Made by a program: the position numbers and the translations under genes. The notes under the pieces were generated by a model, which saw only the letters and a program-made list of their open reading frames with translations, searched no databases and had not been told where the DNA came from. DNA of 37,934 nucleotides from Deltaproteobacteria bacterium (GTDB lineage Bacteria; Desulfobacterota; GWC2-55-46). Of this stretch, positions 22,436 through 35,322 are shown one piece after another. Location of the stretch: assembly GCA_016182655.1 (NCBI GenBank), contig JACPGB010000053.1, positions 1-37,934 on the forward strand, written 5' to 3'. Numbering within the stretch: the first letter of the stretch is position 1; every line of letters starts with the position of its first letter.

Positions 22436-23071
22436 TTAGTACCCCATTTTTTCCATGATATCACAGATTTCCCCGTGTATCGAGGCTATTTCTCGGGGCG
22501 GGGAGGCGTAGACCACAGAGACCCTCTTCTCCTCTTTCGCTATACGCAAAAAGCCCTCCCTGACCCTGTTGTGGAAGGTAAGCTCTTCCCTCTCGAAGCG
22601 GTCCTCCCTCGGGCCCTTTCCGTTCTCTATCCTTGAAAGGGCGCGTCTTAAGCCCGCCTCCGGGTCGCAGTCGAGGAGGATTGTAAGGTCCGGCACGGTC
22701 CCGCCGACTGCGAGCCTGTTAAGCCTTTTTATCGCCTCTATGTCGAGCCCCCTCCCAAACCCCTGGTACGCGACGGTCGAGTCCATGAAGCGGTCTGATA
22801 TGACGACCTTTCCGGCTTTCAACGCGGGCCTTATGACCTTTTCCACGAGCTCGGCCCTGCACGCCTCGTAGAGGAGGAGTTCAGCCATCGGCCCTATCTC
22901 GCTTTTCGCGTCGAGTAGTATGGACCTCACCGCCTCCCCAATGGGGGTGCCGCCAGGCTCACGGATAGTGATAACATCTAAACCTTTTTTTCCGATATAC
23001 TCGCCGAGGAGCGCAATCTGGGTCGATTTGCCGCACCCCTCGACACCCTCGAATGTAATAAAAAGCCCCAT
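22436..23071 (-). CDS. tmk: Thymidylate kinase
   Basis: Tmk phosphorylates dTMP to dTDP. The 211-aa protein has P-loop GVEGCGKST at residues 9-17, the DR motif in SDRFMDSTVAYQGFGRG and a lid near ENGKGPREDRFERE. ATG 23071 is preceded by AAGGG with 6 nt spacing. The frame is open 21 codons further upstream, but these overlap the promoter region and lack similarity. First gene of the tmk-holB-ricT-metG-tatD series, divergent from blaI. Confidence 0.95.
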   Translation of the reverse strand: MGLFITFEGVEGCGKSTQIALLGEYIGKKGLDVITIREPGGTPIGEAVRSILLDAKSEIGPMAELLLYEACRAELVEKVIRPALKAGKVVISDRFMDSTVAYQGFGRGLDIEAIKRLNRLAVGGTVPDLTILLDCDPEAGLRRALSRIENGKGPREDRFEREELTFHNRVREGFLRIAKEEKRVSVVYASPPREIASIHGEICDIMEKMGY

Positions 23072-23105
23072 ATCGAGCCCTTTTAACCAAATTTTAATGT
23101 TGCCA

Positions 23106-23134
23106 ATATTACAGTAATCAGCAGGATTCCGCAA
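23106..23134 (-). promoter_or_regulatory. Candidate sigma70 promoter of the tmk operon
   Basis: TTGCGG (23134-23129) and TAATAT (23111-23106) are spaced by exactly 17 nt on the minus strand, about 35-60 nt before the tmk start. Each box matches 4/6 of consensus. Confidence 0.45.
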
Positions 23135-23149
23135 GACGCTTATTAGTCC

Positions 23150-23178
23150 TTGACATTCTACACATTGTCGAATATCAT
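23150..23178 (+). promoter_or_regulatory. Sigma70 promoter of blaI-M56
   Basis: Perfect TTGACA (23150-23155) and TATCAT (23173-23178, 5/6) with an ideal 17-nt spacer. The start point would be near 23185, giving a very short leader before ATG 23195. The spacer is wholly occupied by the dyad at 23156-23172, so a bound repressor would block RNA polymerase. Confidence 0.75.
23156..23172. promoter_or_regulatory. Putative BlaI operator 1
   Basis: The 17-mer TTCTACACATTGTCGAA is an inverted repeat, TTCTAC-N5-GTCGAA, with one mismatch between arms. It contains ACA-N3-TGT, reminiscent of the TACA/TGTA core of known BlaI/MecI/CopY operators. It exactly fills the spacer of the blaI promoter, implying autorepression. 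A perfect-dyad relative lies at 24552-24568. Confidence 0.65.
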
Positions 23179-23194
23179 TCAGGTGGAGGCTATC

Positions 23195-23614
23195 ATGATG
23201 GGAAGCGCAAAGTCAAAGGAAGGATCAAGCAAGGTCCTGGGGCCTCTCGAACAGGAGATACTCGACGTCCTCTGGAATAGGGGCGAGGCTACAGGCAAGG
23301 CCGTACATGCCGATATAAAGTCAGTGAGGGAGATAGCGATAACCACGGTCCTCACGGTCCTTGAAAGACTCGCCAAAAAAGGTTACATCAGCAAGAGCAA
23401 GGGCGATAGCGTATTCGTCTTCAGGCCGGCCTTCAGCAAGGAGGAGTTCGCCAGGGAGGTCTCTAACGGCGTTCTCAAGGACATCTTCGAAATATCGAGG
23501 TCCGGGGCATGCGCGTCGTTCGTGGACGCCCTTGCCGAGACCGACCCCCTTGAGCTCGACAAGCTCTCGGCCATGATAGAGCACAAGAAAAAGGAACTCG
23601 CGGAAAGAAGGTAA
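23195..23614 (+). CDS. blaI: BlaI/MecI-type winged-helix repressor
   Basis: A 139-aa transcription factor of the BlaI/MecI/CopY family. The N-terminal winged helix (LGPLEQEILDVLWNRGEATGKAV, then TTVLTVLERLAKKGYISKSK) binds DNA, and the C-terminal helices (SKEEFAREVSNGVLKDIF onward) should dimerise. The copper-binding CxC pairs of CopY are absent (only one Cys), so it is unlikely to sense metal by itself. I start at ATG 23195 because GGAGG lies 5 nt upstream; an earlier in-frame TTG is part of the promoter -35 box. The M56 peptidase follows 3 nt after the stop. In BlaR1 systems the peptidase cleaves the repressor when a signal binds. Confidence 0.92.
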   Translation: MMGSAKSKEGSSKVLGPLEQEILDVLWNRGEATGKAVHADIKSVREIAITTVLTVLERLAKKGYISKSKGDSVFVFRPAFSKEEFAREVSNGVLKDIFEISRSGACASFVDALAETDPLELDKLSAMIEHKKKELAERR

Positions 23615-23617
23615 CGC

Positions 23618-24529
23618 TTGAGCGCATTAGCCTCTATTATACTCGCGTTTTCGTTCACTGCCGCAACCGCGCTCTGGGGCTATTACGGGCTCCCGGGTCT
23701 CATCGAGGCGACTTCAGGGTTCACAGAGCTCTGCCAATCTCTTTTCGCGCGCTGTCTGGAATATTACGAAATAATAACATTCATCGCCATGTGGCTCGGG
23801 GCCGCGCTCCTCGCTTCCGGCCTCCTCTACTCCCTCATCAGGAACTCCCTGCGGACGGTACAGTCTTACTACGCCGTCTCCCGGCTCCCGGTCAGAAGCA
23901 AAAAAAGCCCGGTCGTCTTAATAGACGACCTATCGGAGGCCGCCTTCACGCACGGCATATTCAGGCCCCGCATATACTTGACGCTCGGGCTTCTAAAAGG
24001 GTTGGATAAGGACGAGCTCAGGGCCGTATTCCTCCACGAGCTCCACCATAAGAGGGAGCGGGACCCGCTCCGGCTCTTGCTCCTCTCGTTTTTCAGGGAC
24101 CTCTTCTTCTATGCGCCCGTGGTCAAGGACATCGCCGCGAACCTTAAGATAAAGATGGAGCACGCCTCCGACGACGCCGCGGCGAAAAAAGAAGGTGAGA
24201 GGCTCGTCCTCGCCTCCGCGCTTATAAAGGTCGCGCGGGGCAATTACTCGGCCTTTGTGCCCTCCATTACAGGGAACAGCCAGGTGTCCGCCAGGGTACG
24301 GAGGCTCGTAGATGGAAAAGAGCCTCGGTTCAGCCGCCCGACATCGAGGGCGGTCGTATTGAGTGTCGCGGCCGCCGCCTTCCTCGCCTTCTCTCTCGCC
24401 TACCCCGTAGGCGCGAAGACGATGGACCACGAGTGCACCCTGAAGCAGTGCTCGGTCCATGTCGATAAGGTCGCCAAATGCAGGGAACACTGCGACGCGC
24501 ACGATACGCGTAGCAGGCACGCGCACTGA
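23618..24529 (+). CDS. BlaR1-like M56 membrane metallopeptidase with Cys/His-rich outer tail
   Basis: A 303-aa integral membrane zinc peptidase. Hydrophobic helices lie at about 3-20, 52-73, 150-170 (weak) and 245-264. The active site HELHH is at 140-144 with likely third ligand E181 (EHASDD). BlaR1 ends in a penicillin-binding sensor domain outside the cell; here the final helix is followed by only about 38 residues containing C273, C278, C288, C292 and six His, a probable metal-binding tail. The start is TTG 23618, with AAGG 7 nt upstream and 3 nt after blaI. By analogy it would cleave BlaI on sensing a periplasmic signal; linkage to a Cu/Ag pump suggests the signal is a metal. Family secure, signal inferred. 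Confidence 0.88.
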   Translation: MSALASIILAFSFTAATALWGYYGLPGLIEATSGFTELCQSLFARCLEYYEIITFIAMWLGAALLASGLLYSLIRNSLRTVQSYYAVSRLPVRSKKSPVVLIDDLSEAAFTHGIFRPRIYLTLGLLKGLDKDELRAVFLHELHHKRERDPLRLLLLSFFRDLFFYAPVVKDIAANLKIKMEHASDDAAAKKEGERLVLASALIKVARGNYSAFVPSITGNSQVSARVRRLVDGKEPRFSRPTSRAVVLSVAAAAFLAFSLAYPVGAKTMDHECTLKQCSVHVDKVAKCREHCDAHDTRSRHAH

Positions 24530-24555
24530 GACAAAATTTTTTGGCCGCATATTCT
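24528..24555 (+). promoter_or_regulatory. Candidate promoter for the periplasmic protein and cus genes
   Basis: GAGACA (24528-24533, 4/6) and TATTCT (24550-24555, 4/6) are separated by 16 nt in the gap after the M56 gene. The operator-like dyad at 24552-24568 overlaps the -10 box. A weak promoter on its own merit; the dyad makes it more credible. Confidence 0.4.
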
Positions 24556-24568
24556 ACCCGCAGTAGAA
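24552..24568. promoter_or_regulatory. Putative BlaI operator 2
   Basis: TTCTAC-CCGCA-GTAGAA is a perfect 6-bp inverted repeat with a 5-nt spacer, the same arm sequence and spacing as the dyad in the blaI promoter. It abuts the ribosome-binding site (AAGGAGGG, 24567-24574) of the next gene, so bound repressor could block initiation of the pump operon. Confidence 0.62.
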
Positions 24569-24578
24569 GGAGGGATGG

Positions 24579-24953
24579 ATGATGTATAGGACTTTATTGG
24601 CGATTCTGGCGCTCTTATTTCTTGCTCTTCCCGCAGAGTCCTCCGAGATGAAGGAGCGGGCGGCAGGGATAGAGGCCACACTCAAGGTCACTCCTGAAAA
24701 ATCGATGGTAGACCTGTTCCTCAAGGACTACTCCAAGGCATTAAGACCGGTAAAAAACGCGAAGGTAAAGGCGATTATCAAGACCCCGGACAAGAAGACG
24801 GTTCAGAAGGAGCTCCTCGGCATGGAGATGGAAGGCGTCTTTTCCTACATGAACTCTCTGGACTTATCGAAAAAAGGCGGCTATATTTTCGATATCACCG
24901 TTGACGCGGACGGAGTAAAAAGGGGGTTCTCGTTCAGGTATGAGAACAAATAG
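24579..24953 (+). CDS. Small secreted periplasmic protein of the efflux locus
   Basis: A 124-aa protein with a clear N-terminal signal (MMYRTLLAILALLFLALPA) and a mature domain of about 100 residues predicted to be mostly beta. Its outline (VDLFLKDYSKALRPVKNAKVKAII, ending DGVKRGFSFRYE) resembles FixH/YtkA-like immunoglobulin-fold proteins often found beside metal RND pumps; I cannot confirm this. It has no Cys or His but several Met (LGMEMEG), so a CusF-like Cu(I)/Ag(I) chaperone role is conceivable, not shown. AAGGAGGG lies 4-7 nt before two adjacent ATGs. It overlaps the TolC-like gene by 14 nt. Confidence 0.75.
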   Translation: MMYRTLLAILALLFLALPAESSEMKERAAGIEATLKVTPEKSMVDLFLKDYSKALRPVKNAKVKAIIKTPDKKTVQKELLGMEMEGVFSYMNSLDLSKKGGYIFDITVDADGVKRGFSFRYENK

Positions 24954-26241
24954 ATGGCGCGCGCCTTTATTTAAGGCCATCGCGCCGTTCATTTTTGCGG
25001 CGGCCGCGCTCTTCTCTCCCATGCCCTCGATCGCCGCCGAGGCCTCGGTAAGGGACCTCGTTATAATGGCCCGCGAGAAGAACCCGGAATTGAAGGCGCT
25101 CTCCGAAAGGGCCCGGGCCGCGAGATCCCGCGCCCGCGCCGAAGGCGCGCTCGACGACCCCACGCTTAAGGTCGAGCTCGAAGACCTCTCGACGGACGAC
25201 CCGCTCTCCATATCTCCGTCGAGCGCGATGCTCACAAGGTACACCGTAAGCCAGATGTTCCCCTTCCCCGGAAAGAGGTCTTTAAAGAGACGGATGGCCG
25301 AGAAAGAGGCGCTCTCGATGGACTCGGAGCTGAAGGCAAAGGCGCTCGAGATAGAGACCGGGGTCAAGGAGGCGTACTACGAGGTAGCGTTTCTGAAAGA
25401 GTCTATCCAGCGTACGGCTGAAATAAAGGAGCTACTCTCCTACATGGCGAAGGTCGCGGAGACAAGGTACGCAACCGGCCAGGTCTCGCAACAGGACGTC
25501 ATAAAAGTGAACGTCGAGACGACCATGTTATCGAACGACCTCATAACCATGGAGGCCGAAAAGGCCATAGCCGTATCGCGCCTGAAATCCCTCATAGGGC
25601 TCGACCAGTCGGACGAAGTAGCCGAGCCCTCGGCGCTCCCGAAGGGCAGGGTCGAGTTCTCGACCGACGGCCTCATACGGAGGGCGGTCCAGGAAAACCC
25701 GGAAGTGAGGATGGTCGAGTACGAGGCAGAGGCTAACGAGCTCGGGGTCGACCTCGCCAGAAAAGATTATTGGCCGGACCTCATGGTCGGGGTAGCGCCG
25801 ATACAGAGAGACGGGGCGTTCGACAATTACGACCTGATGTTCCAGATCAATCTCCCGATATGGAGGTCGAAGTACGATGCGCGGCATGAGGAGGCCTCAG
25901 CCAACGCGAGTGCGCTCCGGGCGCGGGCGGCTTCCATGAAGAACATGAAAGCCTTCGAGGTAAAGGAGGCGGCGCTCATGGTCGAGGCCGCCGACAGGAT
26001 GAGGACGCTCTTTGAGACGAGCCTCGTGCCTCAGGTGGAGCTCGCGTTTGAATCCGCCCTCAAGAACTACCAGACCGGAAAGATCGACTTCCTCGCGCTT
26101 CTGGATACCGAACGGGACCTTAAAAGGACCCGGATAGAATATTTCAAGTCGCTCCTCGAATACAACAAACGGGTCTCGCTCCTGGAAAAGGCATCAGGCG
26201 AGGACCTGAGGGCGGGGCGTATTTTGCCGGAGGCGAGATGA
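24940..26241 (+). CDS. cusC: TolC/CusC-type outer-membrane efflux channel
   Basis: A 433-aa outer-membrane factor with an N-terminal signal peptide (about residues 1-33, ending PSIAA). Two OEP repeats follow, with the family pattern NPELKALSERARAARSRARA near residue 50, a long coiled-coil helix, and a second half beginning NPEVRMVEYEAEA. It forms the exit duct for the RND pump across the outer membrane. It overlaps the upstream gene by 14 nt and cusB by 4 nt (ATGA). Substrate identity comes from the neighbouring CusA-like transporter. Confidence 0.88.
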   Translation: MRTNRWRAPLFKAIAPFIFAAAALFSPMPSIAAEASVRDLVIMAREKNPELKALSERARAARSRARAEGALDDPTLKVELEDLSTDDPLSISPSSAMLTRYTVSQMFPFPGKRSLKRRMAEKEALSMDSELKAKALEIETGVKEAYYEVAFLKESIQRTAEIKELLSYMAKVAETRYATGQVSQQDVIKVNVETTMLSNDLITMEAEKAIAVSRLKSLIGLDQSDEVAEPSALPKGRVEFSTDGLIRRAVQENPEVRMVEYEAEANELGVDLARKDYWPDLMVGVAPIQRDGAFDNYDLMFQINLPIWRSKYDARHEEASANASALRARAASMKNMKAFEVKEAALMVEAADRMRTLFETSLVPQVELAFESALKNYQTGKIDFLALLDTERDLKRTRIEYFKSLLEYNKRVSLLEKASGEDLRAGRILPEAR

Positions 26242-27659
26242 ACAACAGGTTTATCGGCATAATATTGCTCTTCGTGGGCCTCGTCATCGGCGGCGCGGCG
26301 GTATACATATACTCGGGCGCAACACACCCGAAGGAAGCCCCTCCAAAAGAGGCGAAGGCCGAGCGGAAGATCATCTATTACCGGAACCCCATGAACCCCG
26401 AGGTCACCTCGCCCACGCCCATGAAAGACCCGATGGGCATGGACTACGTCCCGGTATATGAAGACGAGATGAAGGAGGCAAAAGAAGCCCCCGGCGTCGT
26501 GCGGATAACGCCTGAGAGGATACAAAAGACCGGAGTCAAATCAGAGGAGGCTCAAATCCGGGAGCTCAAGCGGGTCATAAGGACCGTCGGCAGGGTCGAG
26601 CCCGTCGAGGACAAGATATTCGTCATAAACGCCAAGGTCCCGGGGTGGGTCGAAAAGCTCTATGTCAGCCAGACCGACGAGATGGTGAGACAGGGACAAA
26701 AGCTCCTCGAGCTCTATAGCCCGGACCTCGTCTCGGCTCAAGAGGAATACCTTCTTGCCCTTAAGTCCCTTGAGGACGTGAAGATGAGCCCCTACGAAGA
26801 GGTCAGGACCGGCGCGGCCTCGCTCCTGAAGGCCGCGCGCCAGAGGCTCAAATACTGGGACATCTCCGACGACCAGATAAAAAAGCTCTCGGAGACCGGA
26901 CGGATAAGCCGGACGCTCGCCATAAGGGCGCCGTCGACCGGGTCGGTGACGGAAAAGATGGTCGTCGAGGGGCAAAAGATCGAGGCAGGCGAGCCGCTCT
27001 TCAAGATCATCGACCACTCGAAGGTCTGGGTCTATGGAGAGATATACGAGTACGAGATACCGTATATAAAGGTCGGACAGAAGGCGCTCCTTTCCCCTTC
27101 CTATTCTCCGAATGAAGCGTACACTGGCCGTATCGAGCACATCTACAGCCACCTGGGCTCTATCAGGTACACGCAGGAGGAAGGGACCGAAGTGCGGACC
27201 GCGAAGGTCAGGTTCGCGCTACCGAATAAAGACCATAAATTGAAGCTCGGCATGTACCTGAACGTCGAGATAGCGGCGCGGGTCGCGAAGGATGCTCTCT
27301 CCGTCCCGGACTCCGCCGTAATAGACACCGGCACGAGGAAGGTCGTCATAATAGACAGGCGCGACGGCACTTTCGAGCCGCGAGTCATCGAGACAGGCGC
27401 AAAGGCCGAGGCCTACTATGAAGTAAAGGACGGGCTCAAGGAAGGCGAGTGGGTCGTGACATCGGCCAACTTCCTCATAGACTCGGAATCGAACCTCAAG
27501 GCCGCTATCGGCTCTTTGACAGGCCACCGGCACGGAGCACCGCCTGAGTCGGCAAAGGCCGAGCCTCAAGCACCCGCCGCGCCGGGCGCAGGTGAAGGCG
27601 CTCTGAAAGAATCCCCGCTCGGGCCAAAGGCGCCGAGGACATCGCACGAGGGGCACTGA
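26238..27659 (+). CDS. cusB: CusB-type periplasmic adaptor with heavy-metal-binding motif
   Basis: A 473-aa membrane-fusion protein linking CusA to CusC. An N-terminal membrane anchor (about residues 5-25) is followed by a heavy-metal-binding domain at about 47-75 (YYRNPMNPEV, then PMKDPMGMDYVPVY). The CPMHP found in many such domains is here NPMNP, the Met-only version seen in Cu(I)/Ag(I) adaptors. Lipoyl/hairpin and beta-barrel parts follow (VPGWVEKLYVSQTDEMVRQGQKL; IRAPSTGSVTEKMVVEGQ). The last 45 residues are Ala/Pro-rich with several His. The cusA start is 6 nt downstream. Confidence 0.92.
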   Translation: MNNRFIGIILLFVGLVIGGAAVYIYSGATHPKEAPPKEAKAERKIIYYRNPMNPEVTSPTPMKDPMGMDYVPVYEDEMKEAKEAPGVVRITPERIQKTGVKSEEAQIRELKRVIRTVGRVEPVEDKIFVINAKVPGWVEKLYVSQTDEMVRQGQKLLELYSPDLVSAQEEYLLALKSLEDVKMSPYEEVRTGAASLLKAARQRLKYWDISDDQIKKLSETGRISRTLAIRAPSTGSVTEKMVVEGQKIEAGEPLFKIIDHSKVWVYGEIYEYEIPYIKVGQKALLSPSYSPNEAYTGRIEHIYSHLGSIRYTQEEGTEVRTAKVRFALPNKDHKLKLGMYLNVEIAARVAKDALSVPDSAVIDTGTRKVVIIDRRDGTFEPRVIETGAKAEAYYEVKDGLKEGEWVVTSANFLIDSESNLKAAIGSLTGHRHGAPPESAKAEPQAPAAPGAGEGALKESPLGPKAPRTSHEGH

Positions 27660-27665
27660 TCCGGT

Positions 27666-30600
27666 ATGCTCAAGCGCGTAATCGAGCTCTCGGTAAAGAA
27701 CAAGCTCATCGTAATACTCCTGACCCTCTTTGCGGTCGTCTGGGGCGTCTACTCGATCTATCATACCCCCATCGACGCCATCCCCGACCTATCCGACGTT
27801 CAGGTCATAGTCTACACCGAGTACCCCGGACAGGCCCCCCAGGTCGTCGAAGACCAGATAACATACCCGCTCACTACGGCCATGCTCGCGGTCCCCAAGG
27901 CCAAGGTCGTCCGTGGCTACTCGTTCTTCGGCGTCTCTTTCGTATACATCATATTCGAGGACGGGACAGACATGTACTGGGCGCGCTCCAGGGTCCTTGA
28001 GTACCTGAACTTCGCCTCTGGCAAGCTCCCGCGCGGGGTCACGCCGTCGTTGGGCCCGGACGCAACGGGTGTGGGCTGGGTATACGAATATACGGTAGAG
28101 GGCGAAGGCTACAACCTCGCGGAGCTCCGCTCCATACAGGACTGGTACGTGAGATACCAGCTGACGACCGTCCCCGGAGTCTCCGAAGTCGCCTCCATCG
28201 GCGGCTTCGTAAAACAGTATCAGGTAAACATCGACCCTAACCGGCTGCTCACCTACGGCATCTCGATAGGAGACGTTGTGAAGTCCCTCGAGATGTCGAA
28301 CCGCGACGTCGGAGGCCGCGTCGTAGAGCTCTCCGAGCGCGAGTACATGGTCCGGGGGCTCGGCTACATAAAGTCGGTCCCCGACATAGAAGACGTCGTG
28401 CTCAAGGTCGACAGGACCGGCACTCCCATCAAGATACGCGACATCGCGCGCGTGGAGATCGGCCCTGACGAGAGGCGAGGCATCGCCGAGAAGGACGGCG
28501 AAGGGGAAGTAGCCGGCGGCGTCGTAGTCATGCGCTTCGGGGAGAACGCGCTCGACGTGATAGAGGGCGTAAAGGCGAAGATCAAGGAACTTCAAGCGGG
28601 GCTCCCGCCCGGAGTAAAGATACACTCCGTCTACGACAGGAGCGACCTCATCTACCGGGCGATAGACACCCTCAAAGAGAAGCTCCTTGAGGAGTCTATC
28701 GTCGTCTCCATCGTCTGCATCGTCTTCCTCCTGCACTTCAGGAGCGCGCTCGTCGCCATACTCATGCTGCCCGTTGCCATCCTCATCTCGTTCGGGGTCA
28801 TGCGCGCGATCGGCATAAACGCGAACATCATGTCGCTCGGCGGCATCGCCATAGCCATAGGCGCGATGATAGACGGCGCGATCATAATGATAGAGAACGC
28901 GCACAAGCACCTCGAGAAGAACGAAGGGAGGCCCTTCGACCGCTGGGACGCGATAACGGAAGCGGCCAAAGAGGTCGGCCCCGCGCTCTTCTTCTCGCTC
29001 CTTATTATCACAGTCTCCTTCATGCCGATATTCACGCTCGAGGCGCAGGAAGGCAGGCTCTTTAAGCCGCTGGCCTTCACCAAGACGTTCGCCATGGCCT
29101 CGGCCGCGCTCCTCTCCATAACGCTCGTGCCTGTGCTTATGGGCTACTTCATACGAGGGAAAATACTCCCCGAGTCAAGGAACCCCATAACCCGCTTCCT
29201 CATCTGGATATACGCGCCGATGATACGGTGGGTATTGAAGTACAAGAAGACGACGATAGTCCTCGCGCTTGTCGCGCTCGCCGCTACCGCGTACCCGCTC
29301 TCGAAGATAGGGAGCGAGTTCATGCCCCCGCTGAACGAAGGCACGCTCATGTACATGCCGGTGACGCTCCCCGGCGTCTCGGTCACAAAGGCGGCGGAGA
29401 TACTACAGACGCAGGACAGGATAATAAAGGGCTTCCCGGAGGTGGAATCCGTCTTCGGCAAGGCAGGAAGGGCCCTGACCGCGACAGACCCCGCGCCGTT
29501 CGAGATGTTCGAGACGATCATAAATCTAAAGCCCGAGGACCAGTGGCGTCCGGGGATGACGACTGAAAAGCTCGTCGAAGAGATGGACGAATCACTCAAG
29601 ATGCCCGGCATCACGAACGCGTGGACGATGCCTATAAAGGCGCGTACCGATATGCTCTCTACCGGCATAAGGACGCCGGTGGGGGTAAAGGTCTTCGGCA
29701 AGGACCTTGCGGAACTCGAAAGGGTCGCGCTTGAAGTCGAGGCCGCGATAAAGAAGGTCCCGGGGACCGCCTCTGCCTACGCCGAGAGGATAATAGGCGG
29801 GTATTATATAGACATAAAGATAAAGCGCGATGAGGCGGCGAGGTTTGGGCTTAAGGCCGAGGACGTGCAAAGTGTGATCATGTCGGCCATAGGCGGCGAA
29901 AATGTGACCATGACGATAGAAGGGTTAGAGCGCTACCCGGTGAACGTCAGGTACAAGAGGGAGCTCCGCGACGACTTGAACAAACTCGGCCGGGTCCTTA
30001 TCCCCACGATGATGGGCGGGACCCATGTGCCGCTCTCGCAGGTGGCGGACATCGAGATAAAGATGGGGCCGCCGACCATCAGGACCGAGAACGCCCTCCT
30101 TACGACGTGGATATTCGTCGACGTGCGGGGGCGCGACATCGGGAGCTATGTGAAGGACGCCAAGGCCGCGGTCGCCTCATCCGTCAGCTTCCCCTCCGGC
30201 TACTACGCGACGTGGTCCGGCCAGTACGAATACATGGAGAGGGCGTATTCCAAGCTAAAGGTGATAATCCCGCTTACGCTCGGGATCATCTTCCTCCTCC
30301 TCTATCTGAACTTCAAGTCCGTTACCGAGTGCCTGATCATATTCCTCGCCATCCCGTTCTCGGTCATTGGCGCGTCGTGGATACTCTACATCCTCGGATA
30401 TAACCTATCCATAGGTGTGGCCGTCGGGTTCCTCGCGCTCGCCGGACTCGACGCAGAGACCGGGATAGTCATGCTCATCTACCTCATACATTCGTATGAC
30501 AAACGCGTATCTGAGAACAAGATGAATACAAAGGCCGACCTATACGCCTCTATCATGGACGGGACGGTCCTCCGGGTACGGCCCAAGCTCATGACGGTTG

Positions 30601-30794
30601 TGGCCATCATCGCCGGTCTTCTCCCCATAATGTGGTCTACTGGGGCCGGGGCAGACGTCATGAAGAGGATAGCCGCGCCGATGATAGGCGGCATGTTCAC
30701 CTCGGCGCTCCTTGAACTCCTCGTCCTACCGGTCATATTCGCCTTCTGGAAGGGGTGGGAGATGAAGAGGAAGCATGGTCCAGAGAGGCGTTAG
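27666..30794 (+). CDS. cusA: CusA-type heavy-metal RND transporter, Cu(I)/Ag(I) class
   Basis: A 1042-aa inner-membrane proton-driven pump with about 12 helices and two large periplasmic loops. The proton-relay region GAMIDGAIIMIENAHK carries D403 and E410. The three methionines that bind Cu/Ag in E. coli CusA (573, 623, 672) have counterparts at M564 (LMYMP), M614 (PFEMFET) and M663 (TDMLSTGIRTPVG), all at a constant offset of nine residues. This points to monovalent Cu(I)/Ag(I) rather than Zn/Co/Cd. The gene is complete and last in the operon. Confidence 0.94.
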   Translation: MLKRVIELSVKNKLIVILLTLFAVVWGVYSIYHTPIDAIPDLSDVQVIVYTEYPGQAPQVVEDQITYPLTTAMLAVPKAKVVRGYSFFGVSFVYIIFEDGTDMYWARSRVLEYLNFASGKLPRGVTPSLGPDATGVGWVYEYTVEGEGYNLAELRSIQDWYVRYQLTTVPGVSEVASIGGFVKQYQVNIDPNRLLTYGISIGDVVKSLEMSNRDVGGRVVELSEREYMVRGLGYIKSVPDIEDVVLKVDRTGTPIKIRDIARVEIGPDERRGIAEKDGEGEVAGGVVVMRFGENALDVIEGVKAKIKELQAGLPPGVKIHSVYDRSDLIYRAIDTLKEKLLEESIVVSIVCIVFLLHFRSALVAILMLPVAILISFGVMRAIGINANIMSLGGIAIAIGAMIDGAIIMIENAHKHLEKNEGRPFDRWDAITEAAKEVGPALFFSLLIITVSFMPIFTLEAQEGRLFKPLAFTKTFAMASAALLSITLVPVLMGYFIRGKILPESRNPITRFLIWIYAPMIRWVLKYKKTTIVLALVALAATAYPLSKIGSEFMPPLNEGTLMYMPVTLPGVSVTKAAEILQTQDRIIKGFPEVESVFGKAGRALTATDPAPFEMFETIINLKPEDQWRPGMTTEKLVEEMDESLKMPGITNAWTMPIKARTDMLSTGIRTPVGVKVFGKDLAELERVALEVEAAIKKVPGTASAYAERIIGGYYIDIKIKRDEAARFGLKAEDVQSVIMSAIGGENVTMTIEGLERYPVNVRYKRELRDDLNKLGRVLIPTMMGGTHVPLSQVADIEIKMGPPTIRTENALLTTWIFVDVRGRDIGSYVKDAKAAVASSVSFPSGYYATWSGQYEYMERAYSKLKVIIPLTLGIIFLLLYLNFKSVTECLIIFLAIPFSVIGASWILYILGYNLSIGVAVGFLALAGLDAETGIVMLIYLIHSYDKRVSENKMNTKADLYASIMDGTVLRVRPKLMTVVAIIAGLLPIMWSTGAGADVMKRIAAPMIGGMFTSALLELLVLPVIFAFWKGWEMKRKHGPERR

Positions 30795-31293
30795 ACGCGC
30801 TGTTACTCTATAAAACCAAAAACAATACTCACACCAGGGTTGGATCATTAAACAGGTGCATTCCGAACTTCAGCCCCCGGCAATATACGTTTCAAAACAC
30901 GCGCTATTAGAAACAAACGCTGAATAGCGTTGCCTTAACCATTACCTCGCCGCTCGCCCCCATATTCTCCGCAAATTATTTTTCCTTGAAACTTATCTTG
31001 GATTTTAAACATACCCTGAATTCTTCCTTTTGTGATTTGCCTCCCCAGTTTTTTTGGAGCAGGGAGCGTGACGGAAGGCCTTTTTGAGAAAAGTCCTGAC
31101 CCTCAACCTATAGCTGCAATTTAGAAATTCCATCCGTCGCATATCTAAATCATTTAATAAATTCTTATTTTTCTTGTATTTATATTTTAATAGTTTTAAA
31201 AATTAAAATTATTTATTGACACGTTTTCTATATAATGATATAAGCCGTCAAGTTCTTTTAATAACAATTCTGATCTGGAAGATAGCGGCCAGA
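30795..31293. other. AT-rich intergenic stretch between the cus operon and the RHS gene
   Basis: About 500 nt with no convincing gene. It contains an inverted repeat CGCTATT/AATAGCG (30902-30908 and 30923-30929), a possible weak terminator for cusA, and a 9-bp hairpin with one mismatch (31076-31084 with 31089-31097). The final 150 nt are strongly AT-rich and lead into the RHS promoter. The drop in GC relative to the cus genes marks the boundary of the accessory island. Confidence 0.6.
31216..31244 (+). promoter_or_regulatory. Near-consensus sigma70 promoter of the RHS gene
   Basis: Perfect TTGACA (31216-31221) and TATAAG (31239-31244, 5/6) with a 17-nt spacer, embedded in AT-rich DNA. The expected start is near 31251, about 43 nt before ATG 31294. 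Such a strong unregulated-looking promoter is notable for an RHS toxin gene. Confidence 0.7.
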
Positions 31294-34200
31294 ATGTCGA
31301 CTCCGTGCAGGCTCCTGAAAACCTCCGTCTACCTCCTTTTCTTCCTTCTTGTAACCGGAATATTAATTCCCGTTTCGGGTCATGCGGCGTATACTTATGC
31401 CGATGTGGAAAACTACATGAAAAACAACCCGGCGCCAAATGGGTGTATACGCTGGGTGCAGGGCATTGTCAACTCGAATGGGTCTGGATATGAGGTAAGG
31501 CAAAGGTGCAACGGCGCGGGGGTCTCGACTTATGAGAAAAGGGAATTTGTATATACCCCGGTAATTAATTGCGGCTATGTCTGCGGCTGCTATTACGCTA
31601 CAGGATACATTTGTTGGATTACTACATACGATGGCAATGGTCAACAGCTCGGCCCACCGCACGATGACAGCGGTAGAAGTTATTATTCATGTTCTTCGCC
31701 TGTAAATCCTCCACAGTCTTATTTTACCAATTGTAGCGGTGTCATAGAACTAAGCAATTATGATACCCAGGTAGCTCTATTCGTTCCGGTAACTCAATGC
31801 ACGAATAAAACAACAGGGGCTCCCACTTCCTGCATCCAGAATTGCGGCGACCCGGCTAATCCGACTTATGCTGGAAGCACAGAGACTTCCGGCGACGGTT
31901 TAGACAACAACTGCAACGGCCAGATAGACGAAGGCATAGAGATCTGCGACAACAGGGACAATGATAATAACGGTGAAGTAGACGATGCATGCATAGGCGA
32001 AAGCTGCGAAACTAACAAGCAAGCAGGCTCCTCCGCCCGAATCTCCAGCGGCAACCTGTTCCAAGACCAGTACCTGCACAGGCCCGACTTCCAGATATTC
32101 TACAACTCCCTTTCCACCTACTCCGGCCCCCTCGGCAGGGGCTGGACGCACGACTACAACATAAACATCTCCGAGGACAACGGCAGCTCACTCGCCCTCA
32201 TGAAGCCGGACGGCAACAAGGTCTATTTCTGGCTTAGCGGCGGCACCTATAACCCGGAAGCCCGGACCCCCGAGTATTCGACCATCGTCAAGAACGGGAA
32301 CGGCACATATACGAGGACGACAAAGGGCGGTACCGTTTATAACTTCAATTCCTCAGGACAGCTTACTTCCATTATTGACAGGAACGGCAACACCACGGCC
32401 CTTGCCTACACTAACGGCGACCTCACCTCGGTTACCGACAAAAACGGCAGGGTGAGCCAGCTTTCGTATGACGGAAGCCACCGTATCATCCAGTTCACCG
32501 GGATAGACTCCCAGGCCTCAATGCTTGCCTATAACGCGAGCGGGTATCTGACCTCCGTCATGGACCCTGCCAATAATTCCTGGAACTATACCTACGACGC
32601 TAACGGCAGGATGCTCACCAAGAGGGACCCTGCCGGCAACCAGGTCAGCTACGCCTATGACTCACAGGGCAGGATGATTGCCTCGACCGACGCCCAGAAC
32701 AGGGTAAAGACATTCGCATACGACCAGACGAACGATATCGCGACCGTCACCGAGCGCGACGGTGGCGTCTGGACGTTCAAGTACGACGCTGTCTATGATG
32801 TCGTCCTTGAGATGAACGACCCCCTCGGCAATGTTACGAAGCACACATACGATACCGAGAGGAACTTGACCCGGAAGACGAACCCGGACAACACATATTC
32901 CACCTATACATACGATTCCTCCGGGAACATGCTTACGAAGACCGATGAGCTCGGACAGACCACCGAGTATACCTACAACTCCTTCGGCCAGGTCACGAGC
33001 GAAAAGGATGTGGCAAGCAATACCATCAAATCTTTCGCTTACGACTCAAACGGCAATCTCACATCCTCGACCGACGCCTCGGGCGCAGTCAGCCAGTTCC
33101 AGTATGACGCAAGGGGCAACCTCACCAGGACCATAGACCCTGCATTGAACGAAACCACGCTCGTCTACAACGCCAATAACAACCTTCTTTCCATCACTGA
33201 CCCTGCCAGCGGCGTTATAAGCATCACCTATGATTCCGCCGGAAGGCCTTCAAGCCAGACTAACGCCGCAGGCGCGACCACTGCATTCGTCTACGACAAC
33301 CTCGGCAGGCTTACGACTATAACCGAGCCCGGCAATGCCGTGACCCAGTTCTCCTATGACGCCAACGGCAACACGACATCCGTTACGGACGCCAACAACA
33401 GGACCACAACATACGCCTATAATCCTGACAACCTCGTCACCTCCGAAACGAACGCCCTCGGCCATGTGACTACTTATACATACGGCAGTACCGGTTGCGG
33501 CACATGCAACGGAGGGGTGAACAAGCTTACCGCCCTTACCGACGCCCGTACGAACGCAACCAATTTTACCTATGACAGGCTCGGCAGGGTGCTTACAGAG
33601 ACGGACCCGCTCGGGAATACCTTTACCTATACCTATGATTCTGAGGGCAACCTTTCATCAAGGCGTGACGCCAACCTTGCAACCACCACATATACCTATG
33701 ACGATATAAACAGGCTCACGAGTATAAACTACCCGGACTCTACCTCGGTCACTTACCAGTACGACTCCAAAAATAATATAACGGGCGTAGCAAACGCCAA
33801 TATCTCATACACCTACGCCTATGACGCGAACGGCCGCGTAACATCCGTTACGGACTCCAGCAACCGCACGATAAGCTACACTTACGACTCACGCGGAAAC
33901 AGGACGCAGATGACCACCCCTGACGGGAGGGTCTTACAGTACGCGTATGACAGCAATAATAGGCTCACAGGGATAACCCCTGCAACCGGCCAGACCTTTG
34001 CATTTGCATACGACTCCGCCGACAGAAGGACCTCATTGACATATCCGAACGGGGTCACTGCGACCTACTCCTATGACACCCGGTCAAGGCTCACCAGCCT
34101 TGTATACAACACCTCGACTGCCTCGACCATAGACACCTTCGCCTACACGCTCGACAATGTCGGCAACCGGCTCACTCGGATTGACAGGGACTATCAGTAC

Positions 34201-35322
34201 GCATATTCATACGATGCCACCTACAGGCTGACCCAGTCCGAGCCGACCCCGGTGGCCCAGGGGCCGTTGTTCTCACAGTCGATGGAGGCCTTCACCTATG
34301 ACGCGGTCGGCAATAGATTGACCGCCCCGGCGTACCCGAAGTCTTCCGCCTATAGCCAGAACTATACATACGATTACGATAATCGGCTTATAGGTGTGAC
34401 AAAACAGATAACCGGCAACCCCAATGCCGACACGATCTCGTTCAAGTACGACCCGTTCGGCAGGAGGATAGAGAAGAGCGTATCCACCTATGAAAACGGG
34501 ACCACGACGACCTACAAATATACCTATGTCTACGACAATGAGGACATAATCCTTGAGATACAGGAAAAGACCCAGAACGGCAATACCGTCACGACGAACA
34601 CGGCCTATACACACGGCCCAGGCATAGATGAGCCGCTCTCATTGGAAAGGGGCGGCAACAAATACTACTACCACACCGACGGCCTCGGCTCCATAACCTC
34701 GATAACGGACAGCTCAGAAGCAACAGTTAACAGATATACCTACAACTCCTTCGGGGCGATCAATAAATCGGAGACAATAAGAAACGCCTACACTTACACC
34801 GGCAGGGAGTATGATAACGAAACGGGCCTCTATTACTACAGAGCCAGATATTACGACCCCGAGGCTGGGAGGTTTGTAAGCAAGGACCCGATCGGGTTTG
34901 TGGGTGGGGATGTGAATGTGTATGGGTATGTGGAGAATGGCCCTAATAGCTGGTTAGATCCTTGGGGGTTATTTAAATTACCAAAGGACCCGAGTGGCTT
35001 GCCACCAGAGTGGAATCCAGACCCATCATATCGTCATCCGCATGGTGAAAAATTTATAGATCCATCAGGTCGGGATATCTATTGTCACAAAGGTAGACCA
35101 GGTCTACCCGGTTGGAGAGGGAAAGACCATTGGCATGATCCAAAAAATTTTGGTGATGAGCATCTTCCTCCTGGAACGGAAATTCCTGATGCCGCCAAAC
35201 CACCCATTCCATGGTGGCAGAAAATACCCTTAAGGTGGCCGGGTCCTTTTCCAATCATCATAGATCCCTGTGTTCTAGTGCCCTCCTTACCTTGGTGTGG
35301 CAATAATGGTCCAAGTGCTTAA
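31294..35322 (+). CDS. Secreted RHS/YD-repeat protein with variable C-terminal tip
   Basis: A 1342-aa protein with a Sec signal peptide (hydrophobic YLLFFLLVTGILIPV, cleavage after GHAA near residue 32). A Cys-rich N-terminal region is followed by two DxDNNxNG-type acidic motifs (GDGLDNNCNGQIDEG, DNRDNDNNGEVDD), likely Ca2+-binding as in MopE-like proteins. After an RHS-type entry domain (FYNSLSTYSGPLGRGWTHDYN) come some two dozen YD repeats (about 32.3-34.8 kb). The RHS core ends with YYYRARYYDPEAGRFVSKDP and DPWGL at 34957-34971. The last 116 codons are more AT-rich and form a distinct tip with GRPGLPGWRGKDHWH. RHS proteins encapsulate and deliver such tips as toxins. I start at ATG 31294; an earlier TTG belongs to the promoter. 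The tip's activity is unknown. Confidence 0.9.
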   Translation: MSTPCRLLKTSVYLLFFLLVTGILIPVSGHAAYTYADVENYMKNNPAPNGCIRWVQGIVNSNGSGYEVRQRCNGAGVSTYEKREFVYTPVINCGYVCGCYYATGYICWITTYDGNGQQLGPPHDDSGRSYYSCSSPVNPPQSYFTNCSGVIELSNYDTQVALFVPVTQCTNKTTGAPTSCIQNCGDPANPTYAGSTETSGDGLDNNCNGQIDEGIEICDNRDNDNNGEVDDACIGESCETNKQAGSSARISSGNLFQDQYLHRPDFQIFYNSLSTYSGPLGRGWTHDYNINISEDNGSSLALMKPDGNKVYFWLSGGTYNPEARTPEYSTIVKNGNGTYTRTTKGGTVYNFNSSGQLTSIIDRNGNTTALAYTNGDLTSVTDKNGRVSQLSYDGSHRIIQFTGIDSQASMLAYNASGYLTSVMDPANNSWNYTYDANGRMLTKRDPAGNQVSYAYDSQGRMIASTDAQNRVKTFAYDQTNDIATVTERDGGVWTFKYDAVYDVVLEMNDPLGNVTKHTYDTERNLTRKTNPDNTYSTYTYDSSGNMLTKTDELGQTTEYTYNSFGQVTSEKDVASNTIKSFAYDSNGNLTSSTDASGAVSQFQYDARGNLTRTIDPALNETTLVYNANNNLLSITDPASGVISITYDSAGRPSSQTNAAGATTAFVYDNLGRLTTITEPGNAVTQFSYDANGNTTSVTDANNRTTTYAYNPDNLVTSETNALGHVTTYTYGSTGCGTCNGGVNKLTALTDARTNATNFTYDRLGRVLTETDPLGNTFTYTYDSEGNLSSRRDANLATTTYTYDDINRLTSINYPDSTSVTYQYDSKNNITGVANANISYTYAYDANGRVTSVTDSSNRTISYTYDSRGNRTQMTTPDGRVLQYAYDSNNRLTGITPATGQTFAFAYDSADRRTSLTYPNGVTATYSYDTRSRLTSLVYNTSTASTIDTFAYTLDNVGNRLTRIDRDYQYAYSYDATYRLTQSEPTPVAQGPLFSQSMEAFTYDAVGNRLTAPAYPKSSAYSQNYTYDYDNRLIGVTKQITGNPNADTISFKYDPFGRRIEKSVSTYENGTTTTYKYTYVYDNEDIILEIQEKTQNGNTVTTNTAYTHGPGIDEPLSLERGGNKYYYHTDGLGSITSITDSSEATVNRYTYNSFGAINKSETIRNAYTYTGREYDNETGLYYYRARYYDPEAGRFVSKDPIGFVGGDVNVYGYVENGPNSWLDPWGLFKLPKDPSGLPPEWNPDPSYRHPHGEKFIDPSGRDIYCHKGRPGLPGWRGKDHWHDPKNFGDEHLPPGTEIPDAAKPPIPWWQKIPLRWPGPFPIIIDPCVLVPSLPWCGNNGPSA

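Follow-up and report, generated by a model that had tools for sequence, protein, structure and literature searches.

Tandem candidate BlaI operators flank a repressor/M56 protease gene pair and precede Cus-type efflux genes in a Deltaproteobacteria bacterium

The window analyzed here, a stretch of 37,934 nt from a Deltaproteobacteria bacterium (contig JACPGB010000053.1), contains a gene pair for a BlaI-type repressor and a BlaR1-type membrane protease, followed by genes for metal efflux. Two copies of a 17-bp dyad, referred to as operators 1 and 2 in anticipation of their proposed role, accompany these genes:

23150 to 23178, plus strand: promoter P1 of blaI-M56, TTGACA and TATCAT with a 17-nt spacer, 11/12 matches
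23156 to 23172: candidate operator 1 (type I), TTCTAC-N5-GTCGAA in the P1 spacer, right arm imperfect
23195 to 23614, plus strand: BlaI/MecI/CopY-type repressor, 139 aa (Pfam Penicillinase_R, E=7e-24)
23618 to 24529, plus strand: M56 (BlaR1-type) membrane zinc protease, 303 aa, HELHH (Pfam Peptidase_M56, E=7.5e-14)
24434 to 24493, plus strand: codons of the Cys/His tail of the M56 protein, C273-x4-C278-x2-H281-x6-C288-x2-H291-C292
24533 to 24542, plus strand: A/T tract AAAATTTTTT, ending 9 nt before operator 2
24552 to 24568: candidate operator 2 (type II), perfect TTCTAC-N5-GTAGAA, directly 5' of the efflux ribosome site
24579 to 24953, plus strand: small exported protein, 124 aa, no Pfam or NCBIfam family
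24940 to 26241, plus strand: TolC-type outer-membrane efflux protein (Pfam OEP, E=1.5e-38)
26238 to 27659, plus strand: CusB-type periplasmic adaptor (NCBIfam PRK09783, E=4e-50, under the model's cut-off)
27666 to 30794, plus strand: CusA-type Cu/Ag RND pump (TIGR00914, 1259 bits, above the cut-off)

The repressor contains a Penicillinase_R winged-helix domain (PF03965, 84.9 bits against a cut-off of 22.6), in which the TTVLTV region is nearly invariant among relatives. Its neighbor carries the M56 domain (PF05569, 52 bits against a cut-off of 31), with HELHH as its HEXXH motif between transmembrane helices, and the AlphaFold model of this protein (pLDDT 83) was matched by Foldseek to Staphylococcus aureus BlaR1 (8exq, probability 1.00). 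M56/M48 domains alone were found in the 303-aa sequence; a penicillin-binding sensor domain is absent. Alignment of the pump with E. coli CusA (3t51) scored 1269 bits and revealed conserved equivalents of M391, M403, M486, M573, M623, and M672, which we take to be the Cu/Ag methionines in the E. coli numbering; the equivalents of the three-methionine Cu/Ag site (M573, M623, M672) are thus present. CusA genes that appear split or truncated were seen in relatives (L189:5177-8500 and L077:8662-8781). Downstream of cusA, positions 31216-35322 encode a large RHS-repeat type protein that is apparently unrelated. Between blaI and the divergent tmk gene, AATATTACAGTA (23105-23125, minus strand) is kept in relatives of the family and resembles, on the minus strand, the extended -10 of a tmk promoter.

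The first-pass annotation of this DNA had described two dyads with shared arms and spacing, one of them filling the spacer of a near-perfect promoter, and had seen no third copy in the window. Our scan confirmed the positions, arms, and spacing of TTCTACACATTGTCGAA (23156-23172, form TTCTAC-N5-GTCGAA) and TTCTACCCGCAGTAGAA (24552-24568, form TTCTAC-N5-GTAGAA), and dyad 1 indeed occupies the whole spacer of P1, which is the sole sigma-70-type match of a promoter scan within 23050-24640. Scanning the genome (2,909,985 bases, 60 contigs) with TTCTACNNNNNGTMGAA returned two places, both flanking the repressor/protease pair, and 0 matches were obtained with the reversed pattern as a control; base composition predicts approximately 0.44 occurrences by chance. 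A third copy was therefore found neither in the window nor elsewhere in the 2.91-Mb genome.

The dyad is also preserved among relatives. Of 59 related genomes, 47 yielded BlaI homologues in a protein search, and a single one was found in the window genome. At nearly all blaI loci of these relatives, the promoter 5' of blaI is TTGAC(A/T)/TATAAT-like and its spacer contains TTCTAC-N5-GT(A/C)GAA; most of these loci have a second dyad, located after the M56 gene and ahead of the outer-membrane/CusB/CusA genes. Alignment of the dyads disclosed constant arms around five central bases that are free to vary. Of the 47 genomes with a BlaI homologue, 46 contain the exact dyad, as do 3 of the 12 in which no homologue was detected (Fisher p=1.7e-7, kinship ignored); this p value overstates the association because relatives are not independent data points. 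The one genome of the 47 that lacks the exact dyad (G053) carries TACTAC-N5-GTAGTA as a variant 5' of its blaI, and the exact sites without a detected blaI belong to G016, where they lie near contig ends, G038, and G040. In one relative (L132, G028:C4), in-frame stops break blaI, and the M56 gene and both operators are retained. Across the phylum, the type I motif was found in 14/17 in-class genomes and 0/378 outside the class. The genomes used in this work are mostly fragmented draft assemblies, and their class membership comes from kinship labels alone. Some of the sites counted in this work come from loci chosen by BlaI similarity, which biases them toward operator-bearing loci; the phylum scan of 17 and 378 genomes is free of this bias. 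The genome and relatives, scanned as the first-pass annotation had advised, thus hold the dyad at orthologous loci and rarely at random sites, and the genome, relative, and phylum scans together with the expected count rule out a chance origin.

Within the genome set, 60 type I sites share the frame TTGAC(A/T)-[dyad]-TATAAT-like, with GTCGAA as the right arm in 26/60 and GTAGAA in 33/60. In the family of the window genome the right arm of operator 1 departs from symmetry (GTCGAA), and operator 2 is a perfect dyad; outside this family operator 1 is frequently perfect as well. The combination of an imperfect operator 1 and a perfect operator 2 would fit a regulator promoter that leaks and a pump under stricter control.

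Further type I sites in relatives precede heavy-metal P-type ATPases with high copper-model scores and N-terminal YHS or HMA domains, as well as genes for small YHS proteins, TRASH-like secreted proteins, and an HMA domain protein (chaperone). The small exported protein precedes the efflux genes in many relatives, and in L106 it follows a type I operator on its own. Additional units, in which a type I operator and a gene are followed by another operator preceded by a T or A/T tract, were observed at L104:2038-2592 and L041:8884-9373. In the window genome, a CopA-like ATPase gene is located on contig 12 (C12:69903). Its upstream region has just a half-site without a -35 box, and we therefore do not claim the full regulon for this genome.

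In the M56 protein, the Cys/His tail occupies the place of the BlaR1 sensor domain, and a further pair of cysteines, C39 and C46, lies in the loop between membrane helices one and two. Among 41 M56 sequences, C273 and C292 do not vary at all, and conservation reaches 90% or more at C39, C46, C278, H281, C288, and H291, on par with the zinc ligands. A profile search of 118 genomes sampled across the phylum found full-length relatives with the Cys tail in the class only, and a search for plasmid relatives of the protease gave none. The C terminus of BlaR1 is located outside, and its extracellular loop EL1 adjoins the sensor (PMC9834060); by analogy with this topology, the tail and first loop of the M56 protein should face the periplasm. 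At four loci, blaI is positioned 5' of efflux genes without an adjoining M56 gene (L083 in G008, L120 in G012, L103 in G010:C2, and L185 in G029:C108), and in G008 and G012 two operators are 28 bp apart. Loss of the sensor where the protease is not adjacent was ruled out for G008, G012, and G010, each of which encodes an M56 relative elsewhere.

Comparison with known repressors placed the dyad among cop-box type operators with one extra central base (N5 against N4), which agrees with the first-pass description of an operator close to the TACA/TGTA type and distinct from it. The N5 spacing is not unique, since the operator of Clostridium thermocellum BlaI_0696 also has 5-nt spacing (PMC8457756); there the arm sequence differs, whereas the window operators are paired in tandem and have other targets. 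CopY/CopR copper repressors (operator RNYKACANNTGTMRNY, N4) share the repressor family and copper-export targets with the window system (PMC7253601). The CopY core TACANNTGTA, with its N4 spacing (PMC7253601), is not matched by the N5 dyads of the window. CopY senses metal itself through a C-terminal CXC, whereas no CXC motif occurs in the BlaI sequences listed, and CopY-like direct metal sensing by BlaI was ruled out on this ground. Three relatives (G031, G032, and G033) carry, besides an N5 pair, a second blaI-M56 pair with TTCTAC-N4-GTAGAA dyads (L182 in G031:C27, L189 in G032:C14, and L184 in G033:C259), which are related to the CopY/CopR operator; the operator-2 dyads of L182 and L189 contain TACANNTGTA. 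The BlaI proteins of the N4 pairs form one clade (100/100) and have a near-identical TTVLTV-ERL recognition helix. At L182 and L189, the two N4 loci with a visible operator 2, the A/T tract likewise stops 9 nt short of the dyad; the dyad spacing therefore shifts while the tract distance stays.

The tract itself is a constant companion of the internal dyads. At all 47 internal sites it has the form A_nT_m, spans 7-12 bp, and contains no TpA step, and at 43/47 it ends exactly 9 nt 5' of the dyad. The T run occupies positions -15 to -10, with at least 5 T in 43/47; the other form, A7-8T2-3, appears at 4/47. When the 40 nt upstream of each site were shuffled, a T run ended there in 0.28% of trials, and a class-wide search for T5-N4-16-dyad returned 40/63 genomes and next to nothing with the control. 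The T run follows the M56 stop codon at a median of 3 nt (it begins 7 nt past the stop codon in the window), with the next gene 3 to 305 nt away. The A immediately before the dyad is kept in 40/47 internal sites, and its mirror base is not conserved. The weak -10 box that the first-pass annotation had placed 5' of dyad 2 was not borne out: the scan of 23050-24640 gave no sigma-70 promoter at operator 2, and the aligned relatives have no -35/-10 consensus, which rules out a standard promoter. An intrinsic terminator with a GC-rich hairpin was likewise ruled out, as no consistent hairpin precedes the tract in relatives; clear ones exist at L083 and L120 only, both belonging to upstream genes, and none was reported on the plus strand of the window. 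A role of the tract as a U-rich ribosome-binding enhancer is unlikely because its spacing to the operator is fixed while that to the next gene ranges from 3 to 305 nt.

We consider it probable (roughly 0.85) that the BlaI-type repressor whose gene lies between the two dyads uses both as its operators, and that they form one regulon relieved by the adjacent M56 protease upon exposure to Cu or Ag. The proposal of the first-pass annotation that one operator sequence serves both units is supported by recurrence of the dyad at orthologous loci in the genus, family, order, and class, from which binding by BlaI is predicted. In the mechanism that we infer, which comprises BlaI binding, the identity of the metal, protease activation, and cleavage, BlaI on operator 1 would exclude RNA polymerase, given the location of this operator within the P1 spacer, and thereby repress blaI-M56, and operator 2, between M56 and the efflux genes, would add a second block. 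Rising periplasmic Cu(I) or Ag(I) may then bind the Cys/His tail and the first-loop Cys pair of the M56 protein, and the metal-bound form would activate the cytoplasmic zinc protease to cleave BlaI and free both operators. Cleavage would probably occur at the Ser-Phe that phmmer aligns opposite Asn-Phe of MecI, which we take to be the known cleavage position. Conservation of the protease tail, the BlaR1-like protease, the CusA methionines, and this alignment, taken together, support Cu or Ag as the likely signal.

The staphylococcal BlaI-BlaR1 and MecI-MecR1 systems have in common with the window system the repressor family, the M56 protease fold, and the aligned cleavage position; they differ in that the window system lacks a penicillin-binding sensor and has an N5 operator and metal-efflux targets. 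An ordinary cell-wall or beta-lactam BlaI/BlaR1 switch that happens to lie beside unrelated efflux genes is suggested by the family names alone, and it is highly improbable in view of the missing penicillin-binding sensor domain and of the dyads that recur 5' of copper-type genes. As for operator 2, the absent promoter and the fixed A/T tract suggest, with some uncertainty, that it affects polymerase that has started at P1. Operator 2 and its tract could constitute a repressor-gated terminator, a tentative reading that we put somewhat short of even odds, in which bound BlaI would halt the P1 polymerase with the RNA 3' end in the U-rich stretch, and the weak hybrid there would lead to backtracking and release. 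Leaky transcription from P1 would then yield repressor and protease without the pump. The T run at -15 to -10 and the tract end at 9 nt in 43/47 sites fit this arrangement, as do the T bias, the position of the tract right behind the stop codon even with the next gene 46-305 nt off, the lack of both a promoter and a consistent hairpin, and the retention of the 9 nt by the N4 paralogues. Roadblocking by bacterial repressors is established (PMC10310618), and RNA polymerase I halts in a T-rich stretch 15 bp before a roadblock (PMC12366685), close to the positions here. However, the Pol I roadblock with a T-rich stretch released no RNA without an RNA hairpin, which release required (PMC12366685), and the A7-8T2-3 tracts at 4/47 sites would give no U tract. 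That operator 2 is a hairpin-free BlaI roadblock with a U-rich stretch at 9 nt, analogous in bacteria to the roadblock and T-rich element of RNA polymerase I, appears somewhat unlikely; if true, a copper-sensing protease switch would decide whether transcription continues past the regulator genes into those for the pump.

The tract could instead be the upstream element of a -35-less internal promoter, with a (T/A)ATTCT -10 overlapping the left arm and BlaI occluding it. Operators over promoters are usual, and the A before the dyad, conserved in 40/47 without a mirrored T, behaves as the key A in a -10 element would; nevertheless, this reading is rather unlikely, as the sites have neither a -35 consensus nor a TG extension, the first -10 T is present in less than half of them, the promoter scan gave no match, and the type I sites indicate a lineage that uses TTGACA. 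Bent, stiff A-tract DNA aiding BlaI on operator 2, or looping with operator 1, would account for the 47/47 A_nT_m tracts of 7-12 bp without TpA, approximately two helix turns from the dyad center, and would accommodate the four A-rich exceptions. Such a role seems fairly improbable given the strong T bias of the coding strand and a tract that is always on the upstream side; moreover, the tract is not a rule at type I sites, and the spacing between operators differs among relatives.

The closest known system is PetR/PetP of Synechocystis, a copper-responsive BlaI/BlaR1-type pair (PMC7896320, PMC12292863, PMC10141476, PMC13421787). It likewise combines an adjacent BlaI-like regulator and BlaR1-like membrane protease, and the likeness concerns the gene pair and the copper-type targets. 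PetR controls the switch between plastocyanin and cytochrome c6 and is also an activator of petJ, whereas window-type sites are found 5' of genes for Cus efflux and CopA-type proteins. Our description of the Cys/His tail and of the A/T-tract operator applies to the class of the window genome, and the comparison with PetRP covered the gene pair and its targets. Given this precedent, copper control through a BlaR1-type protease is not new in itself; our literature search for M56 together with copper gave nothing direct besides PetRP. What is new is a second operator without a recognizable sigma-70 promoter, behind an A/T tract at a fixed 9 nt.

Proteolytic signaling of the BlaI/BlaR1 type is known mainly from beta-lactam resistance and one cyanobacterial copper switch. 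Our findings, drawn from sequence comparison, indicate that it likely runs copper efflux throughout an entire class of uncultured bacteria, in which a short Cys/His tail takes the usual place of the drug sensor. The operator is sufficiently defined for regulon prediction from sequence, and a concrete question of mechanism arises from the A/T tract, which keeps a fixed distance to the internal operator. The N4 and N5 sister systems, whose recognition helices are nearly identical, form a natural experiment on how the spacing within an operator determines specificity.
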